Below are positions 26,340-40,881 of a DNA stretch of 64,000 nucleotides, piece after piece. Made by a program: the position numbers and the translations under genes. The DNA is from Alphaproteobacteria bacterium (lineage in GTDB: Bacteria; Pseudomonadota; Alphaproteobacteria; Micavibrionales; Micavibrionaceae), in the NCBI GenBank assembly GCA_009995595.1, contig JAACPE010000001.1, positions 124,001-188,000 of the forward strand. The letters are read 5' to 3'. Positions within the stretch are counted from its first letter, which is position 1; each line of letters begins with the position of its first letter. Under the pieces are notes generated by a model that did not search any database, was not told the DNA's origin, and worked only from the letters and a program-made list of their open reading frames with translations.

Positions 26340-26457
26340 TGTCTGTTTTCTTTCTGCTCTTGCTCATAAGTCTTTGTAATCATTGAATAGGATTAAACTC
26401 CCATTTTATCGCCGTAAAGTAAACCAAAATAAATAGGAAAATATTCTTAAATTTATC

Positions 26458-26514
26458 TTGACATGAGAACATAATCCTATCATAAGTAAGAACATAAAGC
26501 GAACAAATGTGTTC
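26458..26514 (+). promoter_or_regulatory. Promoter and GAACA repeat operators at the left end of the phage-derived cluster
   Basis: A TTGACA -35 (26458-26463) is followed by TCATAA at 26480-26485 (16-base spacing, weak -10). GAACA half-sites occur at 26467, 26490 and 26501, spaced 23 and 11 bases. The last forms an inverted repeat GAACA-N4-TGTTC at 26501-26514. Helical spacing and position between repressor and structural genes suggest an operator. Confidence 0.5.
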
Positions 26515-26563
26515 AAAAACAGGAAAAAAGATAAAAACGAAATAAAAAGAAAGAACAAACGCC

Positions 26564-27046
26564 ATGCCTTCCGATAAATATAAAACACCAAAAACCAGCA
26601 ATGATCGTGACTATGTACTGTTTTCAGACGCGGTCGAGGCGTGGTTTTGGTTTATTCAGGCGCAAGAGGCCAAAAACGAAGGGGCGCGCTTTACAGCAGG
26701 GCAATCGTTAAACCCGCGCCCATGTGAGCCGACGGATATTTTAAAGATCCTTGATACGCTCTATCGTAATCGTCGCCTTATGCGCGAGCATTTGTTGGTC
26801 TTGCGTCATTATGGCCGCCGCCAACTCGCCCCCGATGCGCGGCGTGTGAAGGAGATGCGGGCGCATTCCCTTTGGGCCGAAGCGATGGATCGGATAGAGC
26901 CTATTTTAATTCGAAAAGGCATCGTAAAAGAACAAGCATTTTTAAAACTGCCCGAAAAAATAGAACAAAAAAAACTGACTTGTCCTCATCCGAATAAATA
27001 TTGGGTGCACGGCGCCGTTGTCCATCAGGGGCGTTTGTCATGTTAA
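26564..27046 (+). CDS. Phage-cluster protein of unknown function
   Basis: 160 residues, basic, mostly helical, no membrane segment. The centre (DILKILDTLYRNRRLMREHLLVLRHYGRRQLAPD) has many Arg residues and could bind nucleic acid. The tail has one HPNKYWVHG stretch. Not recognised. It is the first gene after the promoter at 26458 and overlaps the next gene by seven bases. Confidence 0.6.
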   Translation: MPSDKYKTPKTSNDRDYVLFSDAVEAWFWFIQAQEAKNEGARFTAGQSLNPRPCEPTDILKILDTLYRNRRLMREHLLVLRHYGRRQLAPDARRVKEMRAHSLWAEAMDRIEPILIRKGIVKEQAFLKLPEKIEQKKLTCPHPNKYWVHGAVVHQGRLSC

Positions 27047-27498
27047 AAACAGGTGAATTAAACACAGATGAGCGCCCTAACGTCGCGCAAGACGCATGGG
27101 TGGTTTTTAGCGGTGAGACGGATATACCGTGGCTTAAGATATTAAAACCCGGTTTTCGTCATTGCTTTGTTTTGATTAATGACGGGGTACGCTGGATGAG
27201 TATTGATCCGCTGTCATCTTATACAGAGGTGCTAATTTATCATCACATTACGCCGTGCTTTGACTTGCCGCATTGGTTGCAAGGGCGCGGTTATAAAGTG
27301 ATGAAAACTAACATTACCCGCGATCATAAAAAGGCCGCGCCCGTTATGATTTTTTCATGCGTGGAGGCGATTAAACGCCTTTTAGGTATCCACAAGCATT
27401 TTGTTTTTACGCCTCATCAGCTTTATCAGTTTTTAAAATCAAACACAAAAACACACAACACTATACCACAACAAAATAAGGAGATTTCCTATGGGTAG
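27040..27498 (+). CDS. Phage-cluster protein of unknown function
   Basis: 152 residues from ATG 27040 (overlapping the previous stop). The segment GFRHCFVLINDGVRWMSIDPLSS pairs Cys and His with an Asp further on, and a second Cys-containing helix is FSCVEAIKRLLGIHKHFVFTPHQLY. This layout resembles a small cysteine-peptidase-like fold, but I cannot assign a family. The next gene overlaps its 3' end by eight bases. Confidence 0.6.
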   Translation: MLKTGELNTDERPNVAQDAWVVFSGETDIPWLKILKPGFRHCFVLINDGVRWMSIDPLSSYTEVLIYHHITPCFDLPHWLQGRGYKVMKTNITRDHKKAAPVMIFSCVEAIKRLLGIHKHFVFTPHQLYQFLKSNTKTHNTIPQQNKEISYG

Positions 27499-27736
27499 TT
27501 TAACCAAACGGCCAAAAGTACCAACTGCGCCGCAGCCTGTCGTGATAGCGCCAAGTGTCCAAGCGCCCGTTGATACGGGGCTAAGTGAAGATGACGAGCG
27601 CGCCCAAGTTCGCCAAGAAAGTTTGCTACGCCGCTCACGCGGACGCTTAGGCACTGTGTTCACTGGCTTTCAAGGGCTGCTCTCTGAGGTGAGTACAGCA
27701 GATACAACGGCGCGTAAAACGCTACTAGGAGAATAA
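27491..27736 (+). CDS. Small protein upstream of portal
   Basis: 81 residues: a Pro-rich N-terminus, then RQESLLRRSRGRLGTVFTGFQGLL and a C-terminal ARKTLLGE. Short proteins with this Arg-rich core and a KTLLGE-type ending are familiar just before portal genes in podovirus-like prophages of this class. The function is unknown. A good AAGGAG ribosome site precedes it. Confidence 0.65.
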   Translation: MGSLTKRPKVPTAPQPVVIAPSVQAPVDTGLSEDDERAQVRQESLLRRSRGRLGTVFTGFQGLLSEVSTADTTARKTLLGE

Positions 27737-27737
27737 A

Positions 27738-29267
27738 ATGGAATTAGCAAACAATAAAAACGAAACCGCCGATCTAACGCGTTTTATTCGTGGTTTTGAA
27801 ACGGCGAGAAATCATCGCATGAATTGGGAAAGTCATTGGCAAGAGTGTTATGATTTTGCCTTGCCACAACGCGGTACAATTACGCGTTCATTTATCCCAG
27901 GTGGCAAACGTATTAATAGCCTTTACGATGCCACGGCGATGGATAGCGTCGATCAGCTCGCCGCTAGCTTGCTTGGTCATTTAACGCCGCCATGGTCACA
28001 GTGGTTTGGATTTAAACCAGGACCAGATTTAAATGAAGCAGAGGCACAAGCGATTGCGCCACTGCTTGAAAAAGCGGCCAAAACAATTCAGGCGCATTTT
28101 GATCGCTCTAACTTTGCGGTTGAAATTCATCAATGCTTTTTAGATTTAGCAGTGGGCGGAACATCCACTCTTTATTTTGAAGAAACGGCGCCAGGGTCAG
28201 ATTCTGCCTTTAAATTTTCTGCTGTCCCTTTAAGTGATATTGTTTTGGAAGAGGGCGAGCATGGTTTTTTGGATACATCCTATCGCCAGCTTTCGCTCAA
28301 TTTATCTAAGCTTTTTGTGCGTTATCCTGATGCGGAATTACCGCTTTCAATTTTACGACAAGGGGATCAAAACCCTGATCATAAATTTGATGTGCTGGAG
28401 GGGGTTATACCAAATAAAGGGGTGTATGAATTTATCGCGGTTTTCGCTGATGATGCAAACCCTGTTTTATTAAAACGTGGTCGTTTTGATACCTCACCTG
28501 CTATCTCTTTTCGCTAGACAAAATCACCGGGGGAAGTGTATGGCAGATCGCCTGTGATGAAGGCTCTCCCTGATATTAAAACAGCGAACAAAGTCGTGGA
28601 GCTTATTTTGAAAAATGCATCAATTGCGGTCACAGGCATTTGGCAAGCGGATGACGATGGGGTTTTAAATCCCGCCAATATTGAGCTTGTTCCAGGCGCC
28701 ATTATCCCCAAAGCTGTTGGCTCGCAAGGCCTGAAGCCGCTAGAGATGCCGGGGCGCTTTGATGTATCTGAATTAATCCTTAGTGATCTTCGCAGCCGCA
28801 TTAAACATGCGCTCTTAACCGATAAGCTTGGGGCAGTAAATGGCACGCGTATGAGCGCAACAGAAGTATTGGAGCGCGCCAATGAAATGGCGATGTTACT
28901 TGGTGCAACCTATGGGCGTTTACAATCAGAACTTTTAACGCCGCTGGTCAAGCGTGCGTTTACAATCCTTAAACGCCGCGGCGAAATTCCCGATATGATG
29001 TTAGATGGGCGCACAATTGCGCTTGAATATCGCTCACCCCTTGCACGGGCGCAGGCGCAAAAGGGTATTCAAAACACACTCACATGGATTGAAACAGTTT
29101 TATCCATGGGCGGGCAAGCGGCAGAGAGCGTTGATAAAGCCCGCGCGGCGCAGTATATCGGCGAAGCCCTTGGCGTGCCGAGTGATTTGATTAAACGTCA
29201 AATGGATACACCTCGTATTTCTTTGCCAATTGCAAATTTAGAAGAGGGAGCAACCGCAAATGTTTAA
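27738..29267 (+). pseudogene. Head-tail connector (portal) protein gene interrupted by an in-frame amber codon
   Basis: Two pieces in the same frame, 27738-28517 (259 residues) and from 28518 on, are separated only by TAG at 28515-28517. Joined, they make about 508 residues, near the size of T7-type portals. N-terminal marks: RNHRMNWESHWQECYDFALP, LYDATAMDSVDQLAASLLGHLTPPW. After the stop: TKSPGEVYGRSPVMKALPDIK, the portal block normally preceded by an Arg-Trp. TAG stands where that Trp (TGG) is expected, so one G-to-A change explains it. A GTG at 28536 and an ATG at 28557 could restart the second piece. It may be decay, a sequencing error or readthrough. Confidence 0.85.
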
Positions 29268-29541
29268 CCACTTATTTGATAAAACCCCTCACGCTTTTGG
29301 TGAGTCAGAAATAGTTTACACCAATCCCGCCTTGAATATAGAGCAAAAAGAGATGGAGCGAGTTTTCACGCGCCTATTTCATACCGAGGATGGAAAAAAA
29401 GCATTGGCGTATTTGCAAGTCATGACATTTCAACGCGCTCATGGCCCGATGGCAAGTGATGAGCAATTGCGCTACGCCGAAGGACAGCGCTCATTGGTTG
29501 CAACAATATTGCGGATGATTGACCGCGGCAAAGCTGGTTAA
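29260..29541 (+). CDS. Bbp19-like phage protein
   Basis: 93 residues. The core FTRLFHTEDGKKALAYLQVMTF and RYAEGQRSLVATILRMI resembles the Bbp19 family of small phage structural proteins found between portal and scaffold genes. It overlaps the portal stop by eight bases. Confidence 0.65.
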   Translation: MFNHLFDKTPHAFGESEIVYTNPALNIEQKEMERVFTRLFHTEDGKKALAYLQVMTFQRAHGPMASDEQLRYAEGQRSLVATILRMIDRGKAG

Positions 29542-29594
29542 GGCTGTTTATCAAAAGTTTATGAATACTTCATTTCTTAAAAAGGAGAAAAAAA

Positions 29595-30269
29595 ATGAAT
29601 ACAACTCAAACCTCAACACCAAACATGCAAAATGAAACATTGTTGGATAATGATATCCCTGCAAAATTCAAAGATCCGCAAACAGGTGCGGTAAAGATGG
29701 ATGCACTTGCAAAATCGTATAAGGAATTAGAAGCCAAGTTATCAAGCCTACCAAAATTGCCAAAAACGCCGGATGAATATGACGTGAAATGCGATCATGG
29801 TCTGTTTACTTCAGATGACGAAATCAATAAACGCCTTTATGAAAAGGGTTTTACGAATGACCAAGTGCAAATGGTTTATGATTTGGCCGCCGAAGTGATG
29901 GTGCCGATGATTGTGAATATGGCGGGTGATTTTCAAGCAGACCGCGAAGTTGAAAAATTGATTGAGCATTTTGGCGGCGTTGATAAATGGCAAGAAATGG
30001 CGCGTCAGCTTTTGGCGTTTGGTCAGAAAAATCTGCCTGCTGATGTTCTTGATACACTCTCAAGCTCATATGATGAGGTGCTTGCGCTTTATCGTATGAT
30101 GAATAATCAAGAGCCGATGATTGGTGTAAAATCAAGTGATAGTGCAGGCGGCGATCAAGGGCTTGATTTGCAAACCATGATGCGTGATCCAAAATATTGG
30201 CGTGAAAAAGATCCGTCTTTTGTTGCAAAAGTAACCGAAGGGTTTCAGCGTCTTTATACGGATAAATAA
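29595..30269 (+). CDS. Capsid assembly scaffolding protein (probable)
   Basis: 224 residues, acidic, predicted largely helical and without a signal. The N-terminus has DIPAKFKDPQTGAVKMDALAKSY followed by PKTPDEYDV, a pattern common in phage scaffold proteins of this class. The middle is helical (FTNDQVQMVYDLAAEVM) and the C-terminus basic. Place between portal and capsid fits T7 gp9. AAAGGAG ribosome site at about 29581. A terminator follows directly. Confidence 0.7.
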   Translation: MNTTQTSTPNMQNETLLDNDIPAKFKDPQTGAVKMDALAKSYKELEAKLSSLPKLPKTPDEYDVKCDHGLFTSDDEINKRLYEKGFTNDQVQMVYDLAAEVMVPMIVNMAGDFQADREVEKLIEHFGGVDKWQEMARQLLAFGQKNLPADVLDTLSSSYDEVLALYRMMNNQEPMIGVKSSDSAGGDQGLDLQTMMRDPKYWREKDPSFVAKVTEGFQRLYTDK

Positions 30270-30290
30270 TTTATACGTTTTAGAAAAGAA

Positions 30291-30320
30291 AAAAGCCCCA
30301 TTATGTGTGGGGCTTTTTTT
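30291..30320. terminator. Bidirectional terminator between scaffold and PilZ genes
   Basis: AAAAGCCCC (30291-30299) pairs with GGGGCTTTT (30309-30317), loop of nine, with T tracts on both strands. It serves the scaffold gene on the plus strand and the PilZ gene on the minus strand. Confidence 0.85.
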
Positions 30321-30337
30321 AATTTGTGTTTTTTAAA

Positions 30338-30742
30338 CTAGGCCTGTGAGTTAGCGAATTCTTGTGTCACGTAATCATCCATGACTTTTTTAAACGCTTG
30401 TTCTACATCGCGCGTTAAGGGTGCGAATTGAACAGCGAATTTATCTTGGGCACGGCGAAGGATTTTACCTTTGTGCTTAATATCCATGATTTTTTCGGCA
30501 AGTTTGAACTTTAGTGTGATTTCTTTTTCTTGGTTTTCTTCTAATGAGAAGTGCTCAAGACCTGTCATTAGAGCGCCACCTTGGCTCCAGTTTTTAACAG
30601 GATAGATTTTACCATCGATAATACCAACACAGCTATCCATGGCGCGGCGCGGATGGCTTCGCATATTATGTCGGTCGTCGTTACTTGCGCTTATACGCAT
30701 TGAGTCTAAAATTGTTGAAAGCATGGTGTTCCCCGTAGTCAT
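30338..30742 (-). CDS. PilZ domain protein
   Basis: 134 residues. The PilZ c-di-GMP motifs are visible: an Arg-rich box RSHPRRAM near residue 28 and NWSQGGALM near residue 53, followed by beta-strand segments (EKEITLKFKL, HKGKILRRAQDKFAVQF). It is soluble. It lies antisense between scaffold and capsid genes of the phage cluster, the only minus-strand gene there. Start 30742 is used; 30724 is possible. It could be a cargo gene or a host gene captured by the element. Binding of c-di-GMP is inferred from motifs. Confidence 0.8.
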   Translation of the reverse strand: MTTGNTMLSTILDSMRISASNDDRHNMRSHPRRAMDSCVGIIDGKIYPVKNWSQGGALMTGLEHFSLEENQEKEITLKFKLAEKIMDIKHKGKILRRAQDKFAVQFAPLTRDVEQAFKKVMDDYVTQEFANSQA

Positions 30743-30835
30743 TAATGTAAATTTTGCATATCTGGTATGCGTTTTAATAAAAATAACAATACAACATCAT
30801 AATATGAAAATAAAGAAAAAAAGTAATAATATTAC

Positions 30836-30864
30836 TTGACTTTATAGGAATATTTTCTTATATT
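30836..30864 (+). promoter_or_regulatory. Strong promoter for the capsid transcript
   Basis: TTGACT (30836-30841), a 17-base spacer and TATATT (30859-30864). It lies in an AT-rich block downstream of the terminator, so capsid and later genes probably have their own start. Confidence 0.65.
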
Positions 30865-31121
30865 GATAATATCAACGCTATATTTGTATCTATTTCGCAA
30901 GGATACAGGCGTTCGTTACAATAATCTCAAATAATATTAAGATTTTGTCATGGTTTGTGGATAACGGATTTTATGAAAAATTTCGCCCCATAATCATGCC
31001 AACGAGGCTCAAACGAGCCGCTTTGATAAGGATTTTTACGAATCATATCAAGCGAGAACTCGCGTTTGCGTTTTGCCCTCTTATCAAAATAATTACAACT
31101 TTAACGAGAAAGGGAAATGGT
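30865..31121 (+). promoter_or_regulatory. Structured capsid mRNA leader with a DnaA box
   Basis: A ~250-base leader precedes capsid. It holds a perfect DnaA box in reverse (TGTGGATAA, 30956-30964). It also has a GGCTC/GAGCC hairpin near 31010, and TTTGATAAG (31022-31030) with its complement CTTATCAAA (31080-31088), which encloses a GCGAG/CTCGC hairpin. The frame is open from 30945 but has no convincing coding start before 31122. Confidence 0.45.
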
Positions 31122-31955
31122 ATGTCTACAACCATTGATCAAGCTTTTATTAAACAATTCGAGCGAGAAGTCCACGAAGCCTATCAGCGTCAAGGATCAA
31201 AGCTCAGAAATACTGTCCGTGTTATAAACCAAGTAAAAGGCGCATCAACCGTCTTTCAAAAAGTGGGTAAAGGCACTGCCTCTACGAAGTCTACCCATGG
31301 CATGGTGCCGATTATGAATCTTGAACATTCCAATGTTGAATGTGTCCTTCAAGATTTTTATGCAGGTGACTGGATTGACCGTCTGGATGAACTCAAAACC
31401 AATATCGATGAACGTCAAGTGATTGCGAGCGCTGGGGCGAATGCACTGGGTCGTAAAACGGATGAGATGATCATTGATGCTCTTGCCAACGCATCTGCCA
31501 ATATAATCGGCGATTCAAATGTGGGTTTGACCAAAGACAAAGTGCTTGAGGCCTTTGAAACTTTTGGTGAACTTGATGTGCCTGATGATGGTCAGCGCTT
31601 TGCAGCGATTGGCTGGAAACAGTGGAGCGACTTGCTCAAAATCGAAGAATTCGTGAACGCGAATTATATCGGTGACGGGCCGCTTCCTTATACGTCAACG
31701 ACACAGGCTAAAATGTGGCTAGGTACGATTTGGATTCCACATTCAGGGCTACCTGTTGATGGGAATGATGTGCGTTCTTGCTATTTCTATCACAAAACGG
31801 CGATTGGTCATGCGGTGGGCTCTGATGTTCAAACGGATGTGAGCTGGCACGGTGATCGCGCGGCGCATTTTGTGAACAACATGATGTCGCAAGGGGCGTG
31901 TCTAGTCGATGATTCAGGTGTTGTTGTCATTAACTGTGACGAAACACCTGACTAA
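31122..31955 (+). CDS. Major capsid protein
   Basis: 277 residues. The N-terminus MSTTIDQAFIKQFEREVHEAYQRQGSKLRNTVR and the following KGASTVFQKVGKGTA, WIDRLDE and IASAGANALGRKTDEMIIDAL are typical of the phage capsid family found in podoviruses of alphaproteobacteria (HK97-like fold, T7-like position). I chose ATG 31122, preceded by AAAGGGAAA, rather than the open upstream frame. It follows its own promoter and leader. Confidence 0.85.
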   Translation: MSTTIDQAFIKQFEREVHEAYQRQGSKLRNTVRVINQVKGASTVFQKVGKGTASTKSTHGMVPIMNLEHSNVECVLQDFYAGDWIDRLDELKTNIDERQVIASAGANALGRKTDEMIIDALANASANIIGDSNVGLTKDKVLEAFETFGELDVPDDGQRFAAIGWKQWSDLLKIEEFVNANYIGDGPLPYTSTTQAKMWLGTIWIPHSGLPVDGNDVRSCYFYHKTAIGHAVGSDVQTDVSWHGDRAAHFVNNMMSQGACLVDDSGVVVINCDETPD

Positions 31956-31992
31956 TCAATTTCTATAGAGTTTTATATAAAGGATATCGACC

Positions 31993-32232
31993 ATGAGTTT
32001 GACACTTTCAGACCTAAGCGTTTTGGCATACGCCAACAACTTTACCCTGTGGCATTATAAAACCGAAGACAGCGCAGTTACTGGCGCCAATTACTTTGGT
32101 TTGGCCGCAGATATGATGAATGAGGGTGACCTCATCATCGCAAATATTGATACAGATGGCAGCCCATCGACACAATTTTACATTGTGACGAATGCGGCAA
32201 GCGGCAATGTATCCGTCGCGCTTTACGCTTAA
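31993..32232 (+). CDS. Small virion-associated protein (probable)
   Basis: 79 residues: LSVLAYANNFTLWHYKTED, then YFGLAADMMNEGDLIIANI and a beta-rich end (FYIVTNAASGNVSVALYA). Small proteins with the YF..AADM...GD pattern follow capsid genes in many tailed phages and may decorate the head. AAAGGA ribosome site. Confidence 0.65.
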   Translation: MSLTLSDLSVLAYANNFTLWHYKTEDSAVTGANYFGLAADMMNEGDLIIANIDTDGSPSTQFYIVTNAASGNVSVALYA

Positions 32233-32470
32233 TTCCTCCCACGTAAACGCGGCGGCTTAAAAGCTAGAGCGCGTTATTGGCGACAATAACTGCATAAAGA
32301 AAAGCGCTGTCCGTTCCTGATATCGCCCCTGATGTCATAGGGCGCGCATGCTCGCTTATGCCGGCTTTTAAAAGACCCGTATCAATTGGCTGTTCTCCCT
32401 CGCCCGTCAAAGGGCGGGGGAGAATAGTTTTATCCCTAAAAAAAATAATTTTACAAAAAGGAATATTAAA
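32233..32470. other. Intergenic stretch with an antisense protein-like remnant
   Basis: No plus-strand gene is visible. Read on the minus strand from about 32405 down to the TAG near 32270, one frame encodes a protein-like stretch including DTGLLKAGISEHARPMTS and then DSAFLYAVIVANNAL before a stop. There is no proper start codon at its head, so it may be a gene remnant. Confidence 0.35.
32393..32431 (+). terminator. Large GC-rich hairpin before tail tube gene
   Basis: TTCTCCCTCGCCC (32393-32405) pairs over 13 bp with GGGCGGGGGAGAA (32412-32424), with one G-U and a six-base loop, followed by TAGTTTTA. The T tract is weak, so it may act as an RNA stabiliser or processing site instead. Confidence 0.5.
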
Positions 32471-33040
32471 ATGGCTCTTAATGATATTGCGCTGTGTTCG
32501 CGCGCGCTGATACGACTAGGCGCGGCGCCGATTACTTCATTTAATGATGGCACAGCAGAATCTGAAATTGCGGGGGCGCTTTATGCGCCGATACGGGACG
32601 CCGTTTTATCGTCCTATCCATGGACATTTGCAAGCGGCGCATTAAATTTAACCCCGTTATCAACGCCGCCAAGCTCTGATTATTCAAAGGCTTTTCAATT
32701 GCCCAATGATTATTTACGCGCTATTTCGGCGGGATCATCGGTGCAAAGCCGCGGCGCGCGATACCGTATTTTCCGCGATCAGCTTCACAGCGATTACGAA
32801 ATCATTATGCTGAGCTATATTTTCCGCCCCGATGAAGCAGAATTTCCGCCGTTTTTTGATATGGCGCTTATTGCACGTTTATCGGCAGAATTTTGTATTC
32901 CTGTAACGGAAAATACATCGCGCAGCGAAACGCTCTATCGTCTCGCCGAGCAAGAGCTTCAAAAAGCGCGCCAAATTGACGCGCAGCAAGACACCCCAAA
33001 CCGTATCGAAAATTTCAACCTTATTGATGTGCGGGATTAA
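32471..33040 (+). CDS. Tail tubular protein A (T7 gp11-like head-tail adaptor)
   Basis: 189 residues. N-terminal MALNDIALCSRALIRLGAAPITSF, then IRDAVLSSYPWTFA and FQLPNDYLRA: the standard signature of the gatekeeper/adaptor family. It connects portal to nozzle. Five bases separate it from the nozzle gene. Confidence 0.85.
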   Translation: MALNDIALCSRALIRLGAAPITSFNDGTAESEIAGALYAPIRDAVLSSYPWTFASGALNLTPLSTPPSSDYSKAFQLPNDYLRAISAGSSVQSRGARYRIFRDQLHSDYEIIMLSYIFRPDEAEFPPFFDMALIARLSAEFCIPVTENTSRSETLYRLAEQELQKARQIDAQQDTPNRIENFNLIDVRD

Positions 33041-33045
33041 TTGAC

Positions 33046-34944
33046 ATGACACGAATAAGACAGACAAAAACGAATTTTACATCAGGCGAAGTGTCGGATG
33101 ACTTATTGGGACGGGGTGATTTGCGGGCCTATCAAAATGGTGCGCTGGCGCTTCGTAATTTATTTATCTTTCCGACAGGCGGCGTAACGCGCCGCGCCGG
33201 CCTTCGGTATATTGATACGGCGGCGGGTGATGGGCGCCTTATACCGTTTGAATTTAATACGCAGCAAACATATTTGCTTGTGCTTACCGCAAACCAGATT
33301 GCGGTTTATTTGGAGGGGGCGCTGGCACAGACACTTATTGCGCCGTGGCCTTTAAATGATATTAACCAAGTAACATGGACACAAAGTGCGGATACGTTGC
33401 TAATGGTGCATCCTGATTATAGCCCCAAACGTCTTATCCGCAATGCGCTGGGGCAGTTTGTATTAGAGGATTGGGTGTTTTTCACAGATGGTAATATTTC
33501 ATACCAGCCATTTTATAAATTTGCCAAAAGTGATGTAACAATAACGCCAAGCGGTGTGAGCGGTAATATTACCCTCACAACCTCAACAAATATTTTTACC
33601 CCTTATCATGCGGGGACGCGCCTTCGTGTATCGGGCAAGCAGGTGGAGATTACAAGTTATGACTCGCCGACTGTTGTGAGCGTTACCGTGATCGAAGAGT
33701 TAGGAAATACGGACGCGACGATTGATTGGGAAGAACAGGCGTTTTCGCAGGCGCGGGGTTATCCCTCAAGCGTGGCGTTTCATCAGGATCGATTGGTGAT
33801 TGGGGGATCAAGGGATCTACCCAACCGTCTTTGGTTTTCGCGCTCTGGTGATTTGTTTAATTTTGATTTGGGCACGGGCCTTGATGATGAGGCAATTGAG
33901 TTTGCGATTTTATCCGACCAAGTCAACGCAATACGCGGTATTTTTTCAGGCCGTCATTTGCAAGTGTTTACAAGCGGGGCGGAATGGATGGTGACGGGCG
34001 ATCCGCTCACCCCTGAAACGGTGCAGTTAAACCGCCAAACCCGCGTGGGGTCAGTGATAGAGCGCTATATTCCGCCCGTCACGGTGGATGGTGCGACGTT
34101 ATTTGTGGCGCGGAACAAAAAAGAAATGCGCGAGTTTCTTTATACGGATATCGAACAAGCGTATCAGGCAACAGACATTGCATTGCTTTCACGGCATATA
34201 ATTAAAGAGCCGATTGATCAGGATTTTGATACCTCTCGGCGTTTGCTCTTTATTGTTCGTGAGGATGGGCGCTTTGCCACGCTCACGATGTACCGCGCCG
34301 AGCAAGTGGCGGCGTGGACGTTGCATGACACGCTGGGCAAAGTGCGCTCAGTTTCCGTGGTGGGTGACAATGTCTTTATGTTAATTGAACGTAATGGCAA
34401 TTACCAAGTGGAATTGTTTGATGATGCGCTTAATTTAGACTCTGCGCTGGATGGTCAGGTGGCAATCCCAACAAGCACATGGTCGGGGTTAGATCATTTG
34501 GAAGGGCAGAGCGTGTCCATAATTGCCGATGGCGTCGTGCAAGATGATCAAAACGTTTTAAATGGTGCGGTGACTTTAAATGCACCCGCAAGCGCAGTTG
34601 AAATTGGGTTGCCCTATACGCATGTCATTAAACCGTTACCACCAAGCGCAGTGGGGCAAGGCGTTACGGGGCGTAAGCTTCGTTTAATAGAGGTCTTATT
34701 TCGGCTGCAAGAGACGCAGGCGCTTCGCCTTGATGTGGGGCGTGGGCTTAAAGATGTGCCGCTAAAACAAATTGGGCAGACGCCTGTTTTGAATGCACCG
34801 CCGCCAAGTGTCAGTAAAGACATTCGCGTACGGGCATTAGGCTGGCAACAAGACAATACGGATTCATTATGGCGGATTGAACAATCTTTGCCCTATCCGT
34901 TCACGTTATTGTCAGTCACTGAAGAAATAAAAATTAACGATTAA
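33046..34944 (+). CDS. Tail tubular protein B / nozzle protein (T7 gp12-like)
   Basis: 632 residues, beta-rich. The N-terminal TKTNFTSGEVSDDLLGRGDL..YQNGALALRNLFIFPTGGVTRRAGLRYI is the diagnostic opening of podovirus nozzle proteins. Later blocks include GYPSSVAFHQDRLVIGGS and the GAEWMVTGDPLTPETVQL region. It forms the distal tail tube. Confidence 0.88.
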   Translation: MTRIRQTKTNFTSGEVSDDLLGRGDLRAYQNGALALRNLFIFPTGGVTRRAGLRYIDTAAGDGRLIPFEFNTQQTYLLVLTANQIAVYLEGALAQTLIAPWPLNDINQVTWTQSADTLLMVHPDYSPKRLIRNALGQFVLEDWVFFTDGNISYQPFYKFAKSDVTITPSGVSGNITLTTSTNIFTPYHAGTRLRVSGKQVEITSYDSPTVVSVTVIEELGNTDATIDWEEQAFSQARGYPSSVAFHQDRLVIGGSRDLPNRLWFSRSGDLFNFDLGTGLDDEAIEFAILSDQVNAIRGIFSGRHLQVFTSGAEWMVTGDPLTPETVQLNRQTRVGSVIERYIPPVTVDGATLFVARNKKEMREFLYTDIEQAYQATDIALLSRHIIKEPIDQDFDTSRRLLFIVREDGRFATLTMYRAEQVAAWTLHDTLGKVRSVSVVGDNVFMLIERNGNYQVELFDDALNLDSALDGQVAIPTSTWSGLDHLEGQSVSIIADGVVQDDQNVLNGAVTLNAPASAVEIGLPYTHVIKPLPPSAVGQGVTGRKLRLIEVLFRLQETQALRLDVGRGLKDVPLKQIGQTPVLNAPPPSVSKDIRVRALGWQQDNTDSLWRIEQSLPYPFTLLSVTEEIKIND

Positions 34945-34965
34945 GCAAGGATAGGAGAGTTTATC

Positions 34966-35517
34966 ATGGGCGGCATTTTACCAATTGCGACAACTGCAAT
35001 TCAGGCCTTTCAGACAGTAGGACAAGCGGCGGCGGCGATTGCACCCGTAGCGGGTGTTGTGACGCGCGGCGCCAATTTTTTAAGCGGTGATAATACATCG
35101 CAGCGTGTTGATACAAGGCAGCTTAACCAAAATCAACAATTACAAGAACAGATTGCAGCAGAAAAAGCGGCCTTAGAAAAACAGGAATTATCCCTTAAGG
35201 CAGGGGCGGCCGAAAAGGCGCGGCGTGAGGCGTTAAAGCGAGCCGTAGCAAGGCAGCGCGCCAATTTTGGATCAAGCGGCGTGAGTGTGAATGATGGCTC
35301 GTCCGAGGCGGTTTTACTTGGGCTTTTTGATGAATCAGAATTTGATAAAACCGAACGTGAGCGTCTTGATAGTTTAAAAGTCGCGGCGATTGACCAAGGC
35401 CTTAATCAGCAAAAGCGGGTGAATACTTTACAACGCGCACAATTACAACAAACACAAAAATTAAAAAGCCAAATCAACCCGTTTGACGCAGCAAAAGAAT
35501 TTTTGGAAATATTTTAA
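34966..35517 (+). CDS. Internal virion protein (T7 gp14-like, probable)
   Basis: 183 residues. A small Ala-rich N-terminal hydrophobic stretch (GQAAAAIAPVAGVV) is followed by a long Gln/Glu/Lys-rich coiled coil and the ARQRANFGSSGVSVNDGSSEAVLLG motif typical of these ejection-type proteins. It is the only internal core protein in the cluster; the gp15 and gp16 counterparts are absent. Confidence 0.7.
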   Translation: MGGILPIATTAIQAFQTVGQAAAAIAPVAGVVTRGANFLSGDNTSQRVDTRQLNQNQQLQEQIAAEKAALEKQELSLKAGAAEKARREALKRAVARQRANFGSSGVSVNDGSSEAVLLGLFDESEFDKTERERLDSLKVAAIDQGLNQQKRVNTLQRAQLQQTQKLKSQINPFDAAKEFLEIF

Positions 35518-35528
35518 AGGATAAAAAA

Positions 35529-37556
35529 ATGCACGATACAACCCATATTAAAATGCCAGCGGTTGAGCCGCTCGTCCGTTATGTTGCCGATGGGGTGCAA
35601 ACAGTTTTTCAATATCCCTTCCCGATTTTTGCCAGTGAAGACATGGCGGTTTATTTTGATGGGGCGCGTCAATATGCAGGATTTGATGTATCGGACGCAG
35701 GAATGACGCAAGGTGGATATGTCACATTTGACATCCCGCCGTTAAATGGCAGAGTGATCACGTTAGAGCGTGTGTTACCGTTAGAGCGTGTGACGGATTT
35801 TCTTGAAGGGGGGGATTTTTCGGCTAAAGCGATTAATAATGAACTGGATTATCTTATGGCCTCGCTGCAGCAAATTCAGCGCGGGGATAATGTCACGCTT
35901 AAATACTCAGATCATGAAGTGCCAAGCCGAACAACGATGCCACCGCGCGGGGATCGCGCCAATAAAGCGTTGGGGTTTGATGGCAATGGTGACCCGATAG
36001 CAGTGAGCCTTGAGGGGGCGATTGCCGCGTCAGGTTTTATGCCCTTAGGAATTGGCGCGGTCAATCGCACGGCGCAGGATAAATATGCCGAGAGCATTTC
36101 TGTGAAAGATTTTGGTGCAAAGGGTGATGGGTTAACCGATGATACGCTCGCGTTTCAGCAGGCTTTAACCGCGTATGACAGTATATTTATTCCGCAAGGG
36201 AATTATTTGATTTCCAGTACAATTACAATTGGTCATCGCCAGACTTTGATTGGCGCGGGGCAAACAAGTTTGATCACGTGTCAAAATAAAAATTTTAATG
36301 CGATTGAGGTTGTGTCGGATTATGCACAAATTGCCAATTTACGGATTGATGGGGGTGATATCGGGATCAAGCTTTATGGGCGGGATCGCCCCTGCGTTCA
36401 AACGGCAGTGCGCGATGTGGTCCTGCGTCAGCAAAATATTGGTGTGCAATTGGATGGGTTTAATGACACGAACAAGCCGACCTATTGGAATAATTTTGAC
36501 CGTGTCTTGGTGGAGCAACCCGCCGTGCATGGTTTTCATTTAACGCGCAGTGGGGGCGGTGATACGCCCAATGCGAATAAGTTTTATGCATGCCGTTCCT
36601 ATTCCCTCAGCGCGCCAATGAGCGGGGCGGGGTTTTATATTGAGGCGGGGCAGTTTAATAATGCGTTTATTGATTGTGAGGCTAATGTTGATGGCACCGC
36701 GCAGGGGTGTTTTATTGTGGGATCGCAGTGTAACAAAACGCTGTTTATTAATCCCTATGCCGAGAGTTTTAACCAAGTGCCCAATATTAAATTAGAGGCA
36801 GGGTCGATTGAAACGGCGATTTATAACTTATTGTCTGTTTCTGATGGGTCAGCGATTTGGGATTTATCGGGCGGGGAATATACGGCGTATAATGCGGGCT
36901 TTCCGTTTAAAAACAGATTACAAAAAACAACTGTGACCGATTTAAATGCAACGCTGCAGCGTTATGATACAGAGTATCTGGATGCGAGCGGCAGTGTCAC
37001 ATTAGATACGTCGCATTCAGTGCATTTGGTGTCGTCTTTTGGTGGGGCGCTCACTGTTCACCTCCCTAAGGCCAGCGACGCTGTTGGCGCGATGATGGTG
37101 GTGAAGAAGATTGATAGCTCTAAAAACGTGATCACCGTGTCCGAAGATAATGGCGCAGGGCCTGATAGTCGAAATTATTATCTGGGGTCTGAAAATGATT
37201 ATGTGTCGATGATATCAAACGGCACAGAATGGTTTGTGATTGCCTCAAACAGATCAGCGGGCAATACGCGGTTTTACGATGGCAATGGCATTTACGATAT
37301 TGATATGGCGGTTGATACGTATTTGTTGTCCTCCTTTGGCGGCGCATTAGAGGCGCGGCTTCCCCCTGCTAATGCGCCCGAAGCGGTAGGGCGGACGGTC
37401 ACGATTAAAAAGACCGATGTGTCGAGCAATGTGATCACCGTGAGTGAGTTAGGCGGCGCAGGGCCCGATGGGTTTGCACAGCCTTTAACTAGTCAACACA
37501 AGGCGATCACTTGTGTGTCTGATGGTGGGCAGTGGTATATCATTTCAAAATTCTAA
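35529..37556 (+). CDS. Tail spike/fibre with T7-like adaptor and pectate-lyase-like beta helix
   Basis: 675 residues. Residues 1-165 form the T7 tail-fibre N-terminal adaptor (VRYVADGVQTVFQYPFPIF, VITLERVLPLERVTDF, NNELDYLMASLQQIQRG). Residues ~195-460 form a right-handed beta helix beginning with KDFGAKGDGLTDDTLAFQQAL, the pectate lyase-like opening seen in capsule-degrading spikes. The C-terminus has two tandem copies of a ~90-residue module (SSFGGAL, KK-D-SSNVITVSE, GAGPD, W-I-S). The receptor is unknown. Confidence 0.82.
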   Translation: MHDTTHIKMPAVEPLVRYVADGVQTVFQYPFPIFASEDMAVYFDGARQYAGFDVSDAGMTQGGYVTFDIPPLNGRVITLERVLPLERVTDFLEGGDFSAKAINNELDYLMASLQQIQRGDNVTLKYSDHEVPSRTTMPPRGDRANKALGFDGNGDPIAVSLEGAIAASGFMPLGIGAVNRTAQDKYAESISVKDFGAKGDGLTDDTLAFQQALTAYDSIFIPQGNYLISSTITIGHRQTLIGAGQTSLITCQNKNFNAIEVVSDYAQIANLRIDGGDIGIKLYGRDRPCVQTAVRDVVLRQQNIGVQLDGFNDTNKPTYWNNFDRVLVEQPAVHGFHLTRSGGGDTPNANKFYACRSYSLSAPMSGAGFYIEAGQFNNAFIDCEANVDGTAQGCFIVGSQCNKTLFINPYAESFNQVPNIKLEAGSIETAIYNLLSVSDGSAIWDLSGGEYTAYNAGFPFKNRLQKTTVTDLNATLQRYDTEYLDASGSVTLDTSHSVHLVSSFGGALTVHLPKASDAVGAMMVVKKIDSSKNVITVSEDNGAGPDSRNYYLGSENDYVSMISNGTEWFVIASNRSAGNTRFYDGNGIYDIDMAVDTYLLSSFGGALEARLPPANAPEAVGRTVTIKKTDVSSNVITVSELGGAGPDGFAQPLTSQHKAITCVSDGGQWYIISKF

Positions 37557-37578
37557 AAATAATTTCACAAACAGGGAC

Positions 37579-37941
37579 ATGATGATGTCAGAAGATTTTA
37601 ATGCCTGCGTGAAGGCGCAGTTGCTGACCTATTTGCCTATGGCATTTGAAACGGTTTTGCAAAAACACGAAGACGTGATCACGCAAGATTGCACGATCCG
37701 CGACAAAGCGGGCGCGGTGGATGTTCCTGCGACAATGAAGGCCACGTATGAGCAGCAAAAAACGGCCAAAGCGGTTATCGCGCATTTAGAGGCGTTGATT
37801 AAATTAGCGCGGATGGTGATTGATGATACGGATATTAATGAAACGGCGGACGATGATAAGCAGCGCCTTATTGATATCATCCATAAAGCGCAAGAGCGGA
37901 TTAATATGACCCGCGCGCAGATGGAGGGGTGCGATGAATAA
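37579..37941 (+). CDS. Probable small terminase subunit (by position)
   Basis: 120 residues, helical and acidic, with a likely coiled coil (TMKATYEQQKTAKAVIAHLEALIKLA) and no membrane segment. It overlaps the large terminase start by eight bases and follows the tail spike, the place of T7 gp18. No sequence motif proves the role. Starts 37579, 37582 and 37585 are equivalent Met codons after AGGGA. Confidence 0.5.
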   Translation: MMMSEDFNACVKAQLLTYLPMAFETVLQKHEDVITQDCTIRDKAGAVDVPATMKATYEQQKTAKAVIAHLEALIKLARMVIDDTDINETADDDKQRLIDIIHKAQERINMTRAQMEGCDE

Positions 37942-39427
37942 GGCACAAAGCCCTGCGCTTGATTTTGCGGTTTTTCTTGAAACTTGGAACGCGATACAAA
38001 ATATGCAAACGCCGCAAGTGCATTGCCGCATTGCTGATTGGTTGCAGGCGTGTTGGGATCATGGCGATACAAAAATGTTACTCATGGCGTTTCGGTCATG
38101 TGGTAAATCAACGTTGGTGGGTTTGTTTTGTGCATGGTTGTTATGGCGTGACCAGAATTTACGGATTTTGGTTTTGGCCGCTGAGAGTAATTTGGCGGGC
38201 AAGATGGTGCGAAATATTAAAAAGATTATTGAGCGCCATCCGTTTACAAAAAACCTGAAGCCGAATAACCCCGACCAATGGGCGGCAGATCGTTTTACGA
38301 TTAAGCGGGAGGCTGAATTGCGTGATCCGTCTGTTTTGGGGGCGGGCATAGCGGGAAATATTACTGGCAGCCGCGCAGATTTAATTATTTATGATGATGT
38401 TGAAGTTCCCAATACATCGCGCAGTAGCGATTTGCGTCAAGATTTGAGAGAACGTGTCACTGAAAGCCAGTTTGTTTTAACGGCAGGCGGGCGGCAGATT
38501 TTTGTTGGCACGCCGCATACGTATTTTTCAATTTATGCCGATGTACCGCGTATGGAATTGGATGAGGAGACGGAATTTTTAACGGGTTTTAAACGCCTTG
38601 AAGTTCCCATTATTGATGATAAAGGGCAATCGGCATGGCCTGAGCGTTATCCTATCGAAGCGATTGATGCGATTAAGGCAGAGCGCGGGCCAAATAAGTT
38701 TCAATCACAAATGATGTTACAACCGATAAACGTGGTTGAATCGCGTTTAAACACAGGCCTGTTACAATTTTATGAGGAGGATATAAGCGAGCATATCGCG
38801 CAAAATACGCTGCAGATAAAAATTGGTGAAACAAAAATGGTGTCGTGCTCTGCGTGGTGGGATCCCGCTTTTGGGGCGGCGAAGGGTGACAGTAGTGTAC
38901 TGGCGATTGTTTTTTCTGATGATAAAAATCGGCGGTATTTACATCATTTAGAATATATTACGGTTCATAAGACCAATGAAAAAGATGAGGCATCACAGCA
39001 ATGTGACATTATTGCCAATCTTGTCATGCGTTATTTCGTGCCGCGTCTTGCGATTGAGACCAATGGTATTGGGACGTTTTTACCAGGGACGTTAAAGCAA
39101 GTTTTTAAAAAGCTGAAAGTGCCGTGCGCGATTTTACCGCAACATAATAAAGATAAAAAATCGACCCGTATTTTAGAGGCTTATGATGCGCTTATGGCGG
39201 CAAAATCGCTTTATGTGCATCGCAGTGTGAGGGCGACGCCGTATCTCATGGAGATGGCGGAATGGCAAGAAGCCAAAACGAATAATAAAGACGATGGCCT
39301 TGACGCGGTTGCGGGAGCGTTATCGTTAGAGCCAATGCGGTTTCACCGCATTCCGCATACGGTCAAAACGATTGCATTTTCAGGCGGTGGGCGGGCGCAT
39401 CGTGCGAGTGCAGATTTTGACGTTTAA
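37934..39427 (+). CDS. Terminase large subunit
   Basis: 497 residues; packages DNA into proheads. The ATPase domain has Walker A FRSCGKST near residue 52 and Walker B LIIYDDVE near 150. The nuclease domain has its acidic residues in WWDPAFGAAKGDSSVLA, AIETNGIG and DDGLDAVAG. It is the T7/T3 gp19-like type with no frameshift or stop. It shows that packaging capacity is intact at sequence level. Confidence 0.9.
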   Translation: MNKAQSPALDFAVFLETWNAIQNMQTPQVHCRIADWLQACWDHGDTKMLLMAFRSCGKSTLVGLFCAWLLWRDQNLRILVLAAESNLAGKMVRNIKKIIERHPFTKNLKPNNPDQWAADRFTIKREAELRDPSVLGAGIAGNITGSRADLIIYDDVEVPNTSRSSDLRQDLRERVTESQFVLTAGGRQIFVGTPHTYFSIYADVPRMELDEETEFLTGFKRLEVPIIDDKGQSAWPERYPIEAIDAIKAERGPNKFQSQMMLQPINVVESRLNTGLLQFYEEDISEHIAQNTLQIKIGETKMVSCSAWWDPAFGAAKGDSSVLAIVFSDDKNRRYLHHLEYITVHKTNEKDEASQQCDIIANLVMRYFVPRLAIETNGIGTFLPGTLKQVFKKLKVPCAILPQHNKDKKSTRILEAYDALMAAKSLYVHRSVRATPYLMEMAEWQEAKTNNKDDGLDAVAGALSLEPMRFHRIPHTVKTIAFSGGGRAHRASADFDV

Positions 39428-39460
39428 ATCATAAGACACATTTTTAAAGGAACTAAGGAG

Positions 39461-39781
39461 ATGGAAACAATACTCGATAGCGGTTTGTTGTGGTGGATTA
39501 CGGTGATTGATATCCCCGCGATGAGTGCGCTCTTTTGGCTGATCATGCGGCACAAGCGTGATAATGACGCGGCGCTTAAACAAAGCCGGGAGGTTTTAGA
39601 GGTGCGGTGTAACCAACTACGCGAGGGGTTGTTGGGGTTTAAGTTAGAGGTCGCAAAGACCTATGCCTCGATCATGGAAATGAAAGATGTCGAGGGACGC
39701 ATTGTCACGCATCTTTTACGCATTGAATCAAAACTGGATAAGACGGCGCTTAAAACTGAGGCGCTTTCTGCCAGAGAATAA
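39461..39781 (+). CDS. Small membrane protein with coiled coil (spanin/holin-like)
   Basis: 106 residues. One membrane segment lies near residues 9-29 (LLWWITVIDIPAMSALFWLI), followed by a charged helical tail (AALKQSREVLEVRCNQLREG...). The shape fits an i-spanin (Rz-like) or a lysis accessory protein. It lies between terminase and endolysin. AAGGAG ribosome site. Confidence 0.5.
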   Translation: METILDSGLLWWITVIDIPAMSALFWLIMRHKRDNDAALKQSREVLEVRCNQLREGLLGFKLEVAKTYASIMEMKDVEGRIVTHLLRIESKLDKTALKTEALSARE

Positions 39782-39792
39782 AAGGAAAAATC

Positions 39793-40290
39793 ATGTTTAA
39801 AAATATTCTTATTCCCATTTTTAATAAAAAACAAAAATCTGTGCCCCAAACCTCCAGTGAGGAAGAGTTTAAGCAGGCGCTTGAAATTGATGTGCTGGCG
39901 CGCACAATTTTTGGTGAGGCGCGCGGTGAGCCGATTGAGGGCATGGAGGCTGTGGCCTGTGTGGTGATGAACCGCGTGCGTATCTCTGATATAAAAGGGC
40001 AGTACTGGTGGGGGAGCGGCGTGATTGGTGTGTGTCAAAAGCCGTATCAGTTTTCGTGCTGGAACAGGTCTGACCCATCGTATCAGCGCCTGATGAATGT
40101 GACCGATAGCAATATTCATTTTGCAACGTGCCTTCGCATTGCAAGGCGGGCGGTGATTGGGGCGCTTAGGGATAATACCAATGGCGCAACGCATTATCAC
40201 GCGGATTATGTGTCGCCGTATTGGGCAAAGGGGGGGCAGCCTGTTAAGACAATAGGGGCGCATATTTTTTACAAGTTAGTGGAGGCTTAG
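39793..40290 (+). CDS. Cell wall hydrolase, SleB-like endolysin
   Basis: 165 residues. The catalytic Glu lies in ARTIFGEARGEP near residue 40; VACVVMNRV, CQKPYQFSCWN and GATHYHADYVSPYWA are hallmark Hydrolase_2 (SleB/CwlJ) segments. It cuts peptidoglycan glycan strands. No signal peptide, so release needs a holin. It ends directly before the holin gene. Confidence 0.88.
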   Translation: MFKNILIPIFNKKQKSVPQTSSEEEFKQALEIDVLARTIFGEARGEPIEGMEAVACVVMNRVRISDIKGQYWWGSGVIGVCQKPYQFSCWNRSDPSYQRLMNVTDSNIHFATCLRIARRAVIGALRDNTNGATHYHADYVSPYWAKGGQPVKTIGAHIFYKLVEA

Positions 40291-40881
40291 ATGTTGTCAT
40301 CAATTCTTAGTCAAATTGGCTTTTCGTTGCTTATTGAATTTGTGGCGCAGGGTTTGGGGCGGATCAAACATCCGGCGGCGACAGTGGCGCGTGAAGCATT
40401 AAGCCAAGTCGAAGAAGCCATTAAAACAGGCGGTATTGATAGCGCGTCCGTGATGGAGGCCAATCGGCACGCCGAAGAAATGGCGCGGATTAATTTAAAA
40501 CAATATGAAACCAGCATGGTGCAAATTAATGAATCGATGCGCGCAGAAATTTTATCGCAAGATCAATATGTGCGCCGTATGCGCCCGACTTTTGGTTACC
40601 TTATGGCGATTACATGGGCGATGCAAATGGGTGGGCTTTCTTATGTGATTGTGTTTCATACCGAAAAAGCCGCGCAGTTAATGCATGGTATGGCATCCCT
40701 CAGCACGATTTGGGCAGTGGGGTTATCTGTCCTTGGGGTTTATATTTATAAACGCAGTGAGGATAAAAAATTAAGCCAGAATATTACGGATATGCTGACT
40801 ACGATTGATTTTAAGAAAAATATTGATCGGGAGGTTTTGCCGCCCGATATTATCAAGTCATCATTTAAAGTGAATGATTAA
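40291..40881 (+). CDS. Holin of the three-TM gene-transfer-agent family
   Basis: 196 residues with an N-terminal hydrophobic helix (ILSQIGFSLLIEFVAQGLG). A charged helical middle and the conserved QDQYVRRMRPTFGYLMAITWAMQ follow, then a last membrane pair ending in GVYIYKRSED. This matches the family described as a three-TM holin for gene-transfer release, found both in GTA-type loci and in prophages. It is the last gene of the cluster and overlaps the EamA stop by four bases. Confidence 0.75.
   Translation: MLSSILSQIGFSLLIEFVAQGLGRIKHPAATVAREALSQVEEAIKTGGIDSASVMEANRHAEEMARINLKQYETSMVQINESMRAEILSQDQYVRRMRPTFGYLMAITWAMQMGGLSYVIVFHTEKAAQLMHGMASLSTIWAVGLSVLGVYIYKRSEDKKLSQNITDMLTTIDFKKNIDREVLPPDIIKSSFKVND

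Follow-up and report, generated by a model that had tools for sequence, protein, structure and literature searches.

The region analysed here, referred to as the window, is a stretch of 64,000 nucleotides of an alphaproteobacterial genome assigned to the Micavibrionaceae (GenBank assembly GCA_009995595.1, contig JAACPE010000001.1, forward-strand positions 124,001 to 188,000), and all coordinates given below refer to it. It harbors at positions 26564-40881 a podovirus-type cluster, which comprises genes for portal, scaffold, capsid, gp11- and gp12-like tail proteins, tail spike, large terminase, endolysin and holin and is preceded by a set of control sites and a divergently oriented repressor gene (Table 1).

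Gene content and organization of the cluster

Table 1. Features of the cluster and of its control region, in window coordinates.
Position	Strand	Feature	Basis of assignment
25689..26339	-	divergent HTH + S24-peptidase repressor of the cluster	PF00717, phrog_4; beside the cluster in Micavibrionaceae, in 8 of 20 regions from other families and in Azospirillum
26388..26403	.	operator 1, TAGGA-N6-TCC(C/T)A type	>=1 such site (up to 2 mismatches) in 27 of 27 and >=2 in 26 of 27 homologous intergenic regions; shuffle expectation 0.09 per region
26434..26449	.	operator 2, 24 bp (first base to first base) before the TTGACA hexamer	same site search as operator 1
26458..26463	+	-35 hexamer TTGACA	TTGAC present in 25 of the 27 regions
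26490..26504	.	LexA-type box GAAC-N7-GAAC near the expected transcription start	20 of 27 regions; 43 matches in 973,503 bp overall, 23 of them in these regions
26564..27046	+	u1, conserved cluster protein, mostly helical model	no Pfam or PHROG match in 30 of 30 members; AF2 mean pLDDT 81, no PDB match with E <= 0.001
27040..27498	+	u2, conserved cluster protein with invariant H41-C42, D56-P57 and C107	no Pfam match in 29 of 29, no PHROG match for the window's protein; AF2 mean pLDDT 88, no PDB match with E <= 0.001
27491..27736	+	u3, small protein before the portal	phrog_831, E 3e-4
27738..29267	+	portal (head-tail connector) with an in-frame TAG at 28515-28517	PF12236; one 512-codon frame with 1 TAG, seen as two ORFs of one frame (27738-28517 and 28536-29267)
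29260..29541	+	Bbp19-like phage protein	PF25181
29595..30269	+	scaffold, T7 gp9-type	PF05396
30338..30742	-	embedded PilZ-domain gene	PF07238, E 4.7e-4, below cut-off; RxxxR...[DN]xSxxG in 30 of 30 homologues; not found by profile outside Micavibrionales
31122..31955	+	major capsid protein	PF19821, phrog_3437
31993..32232	+	u4, small protein behind the capsid	phrog_18004; also in phage OQ414635
32471..33040	+	gp11-like tail adaptor	phrog_394
33046..34944	+	gp12-like tail nozzle	phrog_376, E 9e-151
34966..35517	+	u5, at the place of gp14	phrog_6529, E 0.0015
35529..37556	+	tail spike with pectate-lyase-like domain	PF12708
37579..37941	+	candidate small terminase subunit, by position only	phrog_31793, function unknown
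37934..39427	+	large terminase (TerL)	PF17289, phrog_38
39461..39781	+	u6, small protein of unknown function	phrog_29007
39793..40290	+	endolysin (cell wall hydrolase, Hydrolase_2)	PF07486
40291..40881	+	holin, GTA_holin_3TM	PF11351

Among the 20 proteins scanned with Pfam and PHROGs no integrase, polymerase, recombinase or RNA polymerase family was matched. Furthermore, no tRNA is present in the window and no direct repeat flanks the cluster in the manner of att sites. An earlier note, made from the sequence alone, had described a T7-like virion and lysis cluster at 26458-40881 lacking integrase and replication genes, and all the parts it named were confirmed. The element is, however, larger than that span, as it also includes the divergent repressor, and a minus-strand PilZ gene is embedded between scaffold and capsid. 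The start of the capsid gene was chosen by eye, and part of the analyses, including the profile scans and the comparison of the capsid with phages, was carried out with a start 18 codons further upstream.

While portal, scaffold, gp11, gp12 and TerL of the T7-like virion are present, there is no gene of the size of T7 gp15/gp16. No ORF above 711 aa was found between gp12 and TerL in 21 of 21 Micavibrionales genomes, and the largest in each (674-711 aa) has the size and place of the spike. The cluster spans 13.3-22.4 kb in the 18 measured genomes other than G043, a relative with a large deletion.

The portal break, which the earlier note regarded as the main argument against function, is a single in-frame TAG and not a frameshift. 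The IMG/VR contig L031 carries the same bases (0 differences over 8061 bp), though it may originate from the same reads. No other gene of the cluster is interrupted, and 29 of 32 relatives' clusters show an unbroken portal frame. The two portal pieces are no more diverged than the same parts of the sister's unbroken portal (62.0 vs 62.3% and 76.2 vs 75.8% mean identity to six others), so the stop is young.

Control region and repressor

The paired operators, the LexA-type box and the divergent repressor are conserved. The recA promoter of the same genome has GTTC-N7-GTTC, whereas its lexA promoter has no exact copy of the box. Outside the order, exact boxes at a fitting place were found only before the first part of the cluster in two cases (L292 and L304), before the capsid in one (L294) and in A. 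soli (L178), so SOS control is claimed for Micavibrionales only. The repressor of the window has the GDSMEP and KT motifs of an active peptidase. In seven genera the DNA-binding domain of the repressor is fused to PyrE.

Conservation of position, descent and selection

The portal family occurs in 43 of 58 genomes of the order including the one studied here, and in 32 of 37 genomes of the family. At least the first part of the cluster is present in 33 of 34 examined regions. The gene pyrE stands upstream in 25 of 34 regions and EamA and/or NhaA downstream in 15 of 34, in the own family and in two further families, and in most relatives examined the cluster lies in the same order beside pyrE. 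In four relatives (G011, G026, G032 and G036) pyrE is not within the 7-9 kb upstream, and in G015 the cluster is split over two places. Losses are observed as well: three relatives (G004, G018 and G043) lack most or all of the capsid-to-terminase part, two (G007 and G018) have a broken portal, and three family genomes at 94% completeness or more (G012, G017 and G034) lack the portal.

The cluster tree of 19 genomes is congruent with that of rpoB, 12 of 16 splits being shared as compared to a maximum of 3 in 2000 permutations, with a Mantel r of 0.88 against a permutation maximum of 0.47. Four of the 16 splits differ from rpoB, one pair with support values of 0.97 and 0.98. The genes of the cluster are under purifying selection, with dN/dS medians of 0.07-0.35 (capsid 0.074, portal 0.122, gp12 0.127, terL 0.143, spike 0.086, lysin 0.109, holin 0.157) as compared to 0.076 for rpoB and 0.181 for pyrE, although dS is near saturation and these values are therefore rough. 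Neither absence from sister strains with att repeats nor a general decay of orthologues, which the earlier note had named as signs of a decaying prophage, was observed.

Distribution and comparison with known systems

A capsid at 50% identity or more occurs in 59 of 385 Alphaproteobacteria genomes, these 59 representing 35 families. None of these 59 genomes carries the marker of RcGTA, the tail protein PF13547, which is present in 36 of the 385 genomes and in 0 of 58 genomes of the order (Caulobacter as control was positive). RcGTA and its relatives (Rhodogtaviriformidae, the alphaproteobacterial type I GTAs), presumably of siphovirus-type origin, likewise have head-tail-lysis genes without replication or integration genes and descend vertically in Alphaproteobacteria, and the holin family of the cluster is named for gene-transfer release. 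No capsid match was found in a plasmid collection of 72,556 records.

The nearest phage, the Pelagibacter phage OQ414635, which is compared here together with the HTVC010P-type podoviruses, is an isolated phage of 34 kb that shares eight genes with the cluster, namely portal, Bbp19, scaffold, capsid (49.5% identical), u4, gp11 and gp12 in the same order and a lysin elsewhere. Contrary to the cluster, it has proteins of 783 and 1247 aa behind gp12, while the u1, u2, spike and TerL profiles had no match in the 23.7 of 34.2 kb scanned.

FpGTA of Faecalibacterium (PMC12946183) is a GTA-like element without replication genes for which a podovirus-like form is proposed; it resides in a Gram-positive host and consists of two operons of 10.5 and 5.5 kb. 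BaGTA of Bartonella (type II), a GTA of Alphaproteobacteria, has phage capsid, portal and terminase, and the word podovirus does not occur in its description (PMC3610622).

The portal was found in 9 of 9 Azospirillum genomes searched, and in 5 of these 9 the cluster is split over two places; no holin was found in the Azospirillum stretches. Mitomycin-induced particles containing random host DNA of ~10 kb are reported for A. lipoferum and strain B510 (Boyer 2008, as described in PMC3899980 section 2.8). Induction by mitomycin C would fit an SOS-controlled promoter, but the genes of these particles are not settled, the authors proposed other loci as the GTA, and strains 4B and B510 were not among the genomes examined; the link to the cluster is unproven.

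Proposed function

The cluster is probably the head-tail-lysis locus of a domesticated short-tailed virus that acts as a gene transfer agent in Micavibrionales and many other Alphaproteobacteria, a reading to which we assign a probability of roughly 0.72. It agrees with the earlier note, which had proposed a podovirus-type gene transfer agent or domesticated particle. Of the criteria for gene transfer agents in PMC9662315, caudoviricete-type genes for a particle, full endogenization in the host genome, often at several loci, and mostly vertical inheritance are fulfilled. However, no particle, packaged DNA or transfer has been shown for this cluster. In the mechanism inferred here, the divergent repressor holds the promoter through the paired operators and LexA covers the box near the start, until DNA damage (and, where the repressor is fused to PyrE, perhaps pyrimidine state) lifts repression in some cells. 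Heads would then form and be filled with host DNA by TerL, and endolysin plus holin would lyse the cell. The spike would bind relatives, and the DNA probably enters the periplasm and is taken in by ComEC and DprA, since the giant core proteins are missing. Both comEC and dprA are found in 46 of 46 well-assembled genomes of the order, but also in genomes without the cluster, and are thus no discriminating sign.

A search built on RcGTA genes reports no GTA in Azospirillales, Rhodospirillales or Acetobacterales (PMC6821227). A podovirus-derived system in such bacteria would greatly widen the reach of GTA-mediated exchange, could give the Azospirillum GTA its genes, and offers an independent capture to ask what every GTA must keep or lose, while the HTH-PyrE fusion gives a direct, testable link between metabolism and gene transfer. 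A more far-reaching hypothesis, about as likely as not, is that a single ancient capture of an HTVC010P-type podovirus founded a second great family of gene transfer agents in Alphaproteobacteria, found in at least 35 families, filling the place where RcGTA is absent and including the genes of the long-known but unassigned Azospirillum GTA. In part of Micavibrionaceae its phage repressor would have lost the self-cleaving domain and been fused to PyrE, so that pyrimidine synthesis itself, besides the SOS response and perhaps c-di-GMP through the embedded PilZ protein, sets when cells lyse to share DNA.

Alternative explanations

It is more likely than not that the system is a true GTA in relatives but has been lost in the window's own lineage, which is compatible with the reading above. 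Because its portal is cut by the stop codon, which is also present in the IMG/VR contig, the copy studied here probably makes no DNA-filled particle, although the stop could be a minority allele of the sampled population or be partly read through.

A domesticated particle with another task, such as killing competing cells or helping predation in a PBSX- or tailocin-like manner without delivering usable DNA, appears unlikely. The giant proteins behind gp12 of the nearest phage, perhaps needed to carry DNA across the envelope, are indeed missing, the host family appears to include predators, and conservation and control sites would fit any useful particle. Terminase, portal and scaffold, however, are kept under purifying selection, which a DNA-free killer would not need, and the cluster is also kept in Azospirillum, which does not appear to be a predator.

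A recently decaying prophage, as suggested by the portal stop and by the broken portals and partial deletions in some relatives, is very unlikely and is contradicted for the lineage by the same place in several families, the co-descent with rpoB, the purifying selection and the absence of an att repeat. Equally improbable is a living temperate phage or satellite that keeps entering the same site, since, although related phages exist and IMG/VR lists pieces of the cluster as viral, there is no integrase or replication gene among the proteins scanned and no att repeat, and the tree is host-like. In the capsid tree, from which two of 188 candidate sequences (L055 and the Vibrio phage L332) fell out by length, five phage records stand apart and OQ414635 is sister to all 186 others.

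Gene content of the cluster

The window belongs to a 1.99-Mb genome in 10 contigs, whose nearest named records in the genome collection are Micavibrio, Micavibrionaceae or unclassified alphaproteobacterial MAGs. One of these (record L111, 27,981 bases, 'Micavibrionaceae') has the length of the contig of G001, a genome of the window's genus. Between pyrE and an EamA transporter lies a 14.3-kb row of phage-type genes in the order u1, u2, u3, portal, Bbp19-like, scaffold, a PilZ gene on the other strand, capsid, u4, gp11, gp12, u5, spike, candidate TerS, TerL, u6, endolysin and holin. No integrase, replication, recombination or RNA polymerase family matched the 20 proteins scanned, and neither a tRNA nor an att-like flanking repeat was found.

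The portal is interrupted by a single in-frame TAG. IMG/VR contig L031, which may or may not represent an independent sample, is identical over 8061 bp including that codon. The two portal pieces are no more diverged from six relatives than the same parts of the unbroken portal of G001, so the stop is young.

Coordinates of the window and of individual features
Feature	Genome	Position	Remark
Window	G000 (window's genome)	C1:124001-188000
PilZ-domain gene	G000 (window's genome)	window 30338-30742	opposite strand, inside the cluster
Region with the insert splitting the portal gene	G446 (A. cavernae)	C2:1262476-1280769	integrase-like and phage-terminase-like ORF, read by eye
Region with the insert splitting the portal gene	G443 (A. 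griseum)	C1:433226-449683	integrase-like ORF, read by eye

Distribution and genomic context in Micavibrionales

The portal family was found in 43 of 58 genomes of the order including the own one, and in 32 of 37 in the family. Family genomes without it are G012, G017 and G034 (94% completeness or more) as well as G024 and G025 (84%). However, a portal match alone does not show the cluster, as that of genome G047 belongs to something else, and the matches of G038, G039, G050 and G053 are weak. Longer stretches were retrieved for 33 relatives and compared with the window's proteins, whereby 33 of 34 regions (window included) hold at least the first part of the cluster. Of the 32 relatives' regions with it, 29 show one open portal frame, while G007 and G018 are broken and that of G009 is cut by the contig end.

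Upstream of the cluster pyrE is found in 25 of 34 regions; of the other nine, four end too early (G003, G009, G027, G028), four have 7-9 kb upstream without it (G011, G026, G032, G036), and one is G047. EamA and/or NhaA is found downstream in 15 of 34, with several stretches ending earlier. The context also holds in two further families of the order (G037, G042; G043, G049). Losses are real, as G004, G018 and G043 lack most or all of the capsid-to-terminase part. In G015, G022 and G036 that part is not in the retrieved stretch, but for G015 a named contig of the same length (L135) carries capsid to spike some 76 kb away. Some clusters have taken up extra sequence and span over 20 kb (G013, G014). 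Furthermore, two contigs of one MAG, OFTM66 (JAJFGU010000022 and JAJFGU010000020; loci L139 and L146), each carry the purC-pyrE-cluster block, reflecting either a mixed MAG or a true second copy.

Descent and selection

For 19 genomes with rpoB and at least five of seven cluster proteins, the two trees share 12 of 16 splits (2000 label permutations: mean 0.26, maximum 3) and the distances correlate with r = 0.88 (permutation maximum 0.47). The cluster proteins evolve about twice as fast as rpoB. The unshared splits concern the deep order of a few lineages, with one conflict supported at 0.97 against 0.98. Within the genus, NG86 dN/dS medians for pairs with dS below 2 run from 0.07 to 0.35 for cluster genes and from 0.08 to 0.18 for rpoB, purC, NAD kinase and pyrE, although dS is close to saturation and only 1 to 13 pairs qualify per cluster gene.

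Occurrence in Alphaproteobacteria

The capsid was sought in 385 evenly drawn Alphaproteobacteria, of which 84 match at E <= 1e-10. Of these, 59 genomes in 35 families have 50% identity or more, whereas the other 25 lie at 27-34% (phage-like), leaving a clear gap. Five of the 59 have a stop counted within the match (G072, G231, G257, G326, G371) and two matches are partial (G072, G398). The RcGTA marker PF13547 is in 36 of the same 385, and none of the 59 has it (expected 5.5; hypergeometric P 0.0018, not corrected for kinship); one family (f100) contains both kinds, its RcGTA match being weak. In the order itself the marker is in 0 of 58. Twenty of these regions were retrieved and scanned with profiles. 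All 20 carry at least four cluster genes, mostly in the same order, while some are split or rearranged (regions L297, L300, L301, L302). The capsid is also kept in three very small genomes of 0.9 Mb from one genus (G125, G244, G414); in the two retrieved (L300, L301) the gene order is rearranged, which might mean a GTA in reduced, possibly symbiotic bacteria.

In a capsid tree of 192 sequences five phage records stand apart, phage OQ414635 is sister to all 186 others (0.996 with it, 0.70 without it), and the nine Azospirillum loci tested fall in one clade of 27 (0.965). The 67 MAG loci taken as Micavibrionales (by name or as 'unclassified alphaproteobacterium', without individual verification) form with 16 further sequences one clade (0.65) without Azospirillum, and G049, of the same order, falls just outside it. 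The 186 include IMG/VR and faecal pieces whose place in a chromosome is not shown. Among the phage-filed records, a 5-kb human faecal scaffold (MT838907, locus L333) carries a capsid that falls inside the clade of the cluster's capsids, so GTA pieces may be filed as phages in databases.

Relation to a Pelagibacter phage

Phage OQ414635 (34 kb, Pelagibacter host) shares portal, Bbp19, scaffold, capsid, u4, gp11 and gp12 in the same order, and a lysin, with 23.7 of 34.2 kb scanned. Locus tags seem to be swapped between the GenBank records of the two Pelagibacter phages OQ414635 and OQ414636 (Baldr tags under Hodr and the reverse). Behind gp12 OQ414635 has unannotated proteins of 159, 783 and 1247 aa. 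In 21 of 21 Micavibrionales clusters the stretch from gp12 to TerL holds no ORF above 711 aa, the largest being of the spike's size (674-711 aa). So the cluster has u5 at the place of gp14 and has lost, or never had, the giant proteins. If these carry DNA across the envelope, as gp15 and gp16 appear to do in T7, delivery would end in the periplasm and uptake would need ComEC and DprA, as is probably the case for RcGTA. Both are in 46 of 46 genomes of the order with good assemblies (54 and 56 of all 58), with or without the cluster.

Control region and embedded PilZ gene

Between the divergent repressor and u1, sites of the form TAGGA-N6-TCCTA (up to 2 mismatches) occur at least once in 27 of 27 and twice in 26 of 27 genomes, against 0.09 expected per shuffled region, and a TTGAC hexamer is in 25; for the two or so regions longer than 400 bp the 300 bp before u1 were used. 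A GAAC-N7-GAAC box stands near the expected start in 20 of 27 regions (23 boxes), while all 34 regions together have 43 in 973,503 bp. The recA promoter of the same genome carries the reverse form, whereas its lexA promoter has no exact copy. The embedded PilZ gene keeps the motif RxxxR...[DN]xSxxG, most likely the c-di-GMP-binding signature, in 30 of 30 relatives, but was not found by profile in the 20 far regions or the Azospirillum stretches.

Fusion of the regulator to PyrE

In 7 of the 27 genomes with a regulator hit (G010, G013-G016, G019, G020; seven genera) the regulator ORF is the same HTH domain continued in frame by a complete PyrE, with no peptidase domain. The profile count gives 7 HTH+PyrE, 19 HTH+peptidase and 1 HTH alone; among the 80 named loci 21 (such as L121, L142 and L176) show HTH+PyrE and 28 HTH+peptidase, the two sets overlapping in organisms. 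The fused ORF is by far the best PyrE match of each of the seven genomes (85-118 bits; the next are 32 bits or less), although the family cut-off of 106.8 bits is reached by three of the seven; the window's own separate pyrE scores 88. The operators stay in all seven. This suggests a trigger enzyme that joins pyrimidine synthesis to control of the particle, with binding and effect as yet untested.

Relation to known gene transfer agents

The locus is a domesticated podovirus-derived particle cluster with high confidence and a gene transfer agent with good but unproven likelihood, whereas this particular copy is probably inactive. The criteria for a gene transfer agent were taken from PMC9662315. 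No paper describing a podovirus-type GTA in Alphaproteobacteria or a GTA in Micavibrio was seen in the literature searched, which lacks subscription papers and most preprints; PMC10883770, PMC13236601, PMC10783043 and PMC3245306 were searched by terms only. PMC6821227 lists no RcGTA-like cluster in Azospirillales, Rhodospirillales, Acetobacterales and several other orders.

The cluster in Azospirillum

All 9 Azospirillum genomes searched have the portal. Section 2.8 of PMC3899980 states that A. lipoferum strains and Azospirillum sp. B510 release mitomycin-C-induced particles with about 10 kb DNA that are rather GTAs, and points tentatively to other regions as source; strains 4B and B510 are not among the genomes examined here. 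In five of the nine genomes, including A. lipoferum Sp59b, the repressor-to-scaffold part and the capsid-to-terminase part lie at two places or on two contigs, while in four they are adjacent. No holin, and in several no endolysin, was found in the stretches read. In A. cavernae and A. griseum the portal is split at the same profile position (about 300) by an insert of about 15-17 kb that begins with the integrase-like ORF (loci L321-L324). A prophage-like element thus seems to use the GTA portal as its site.
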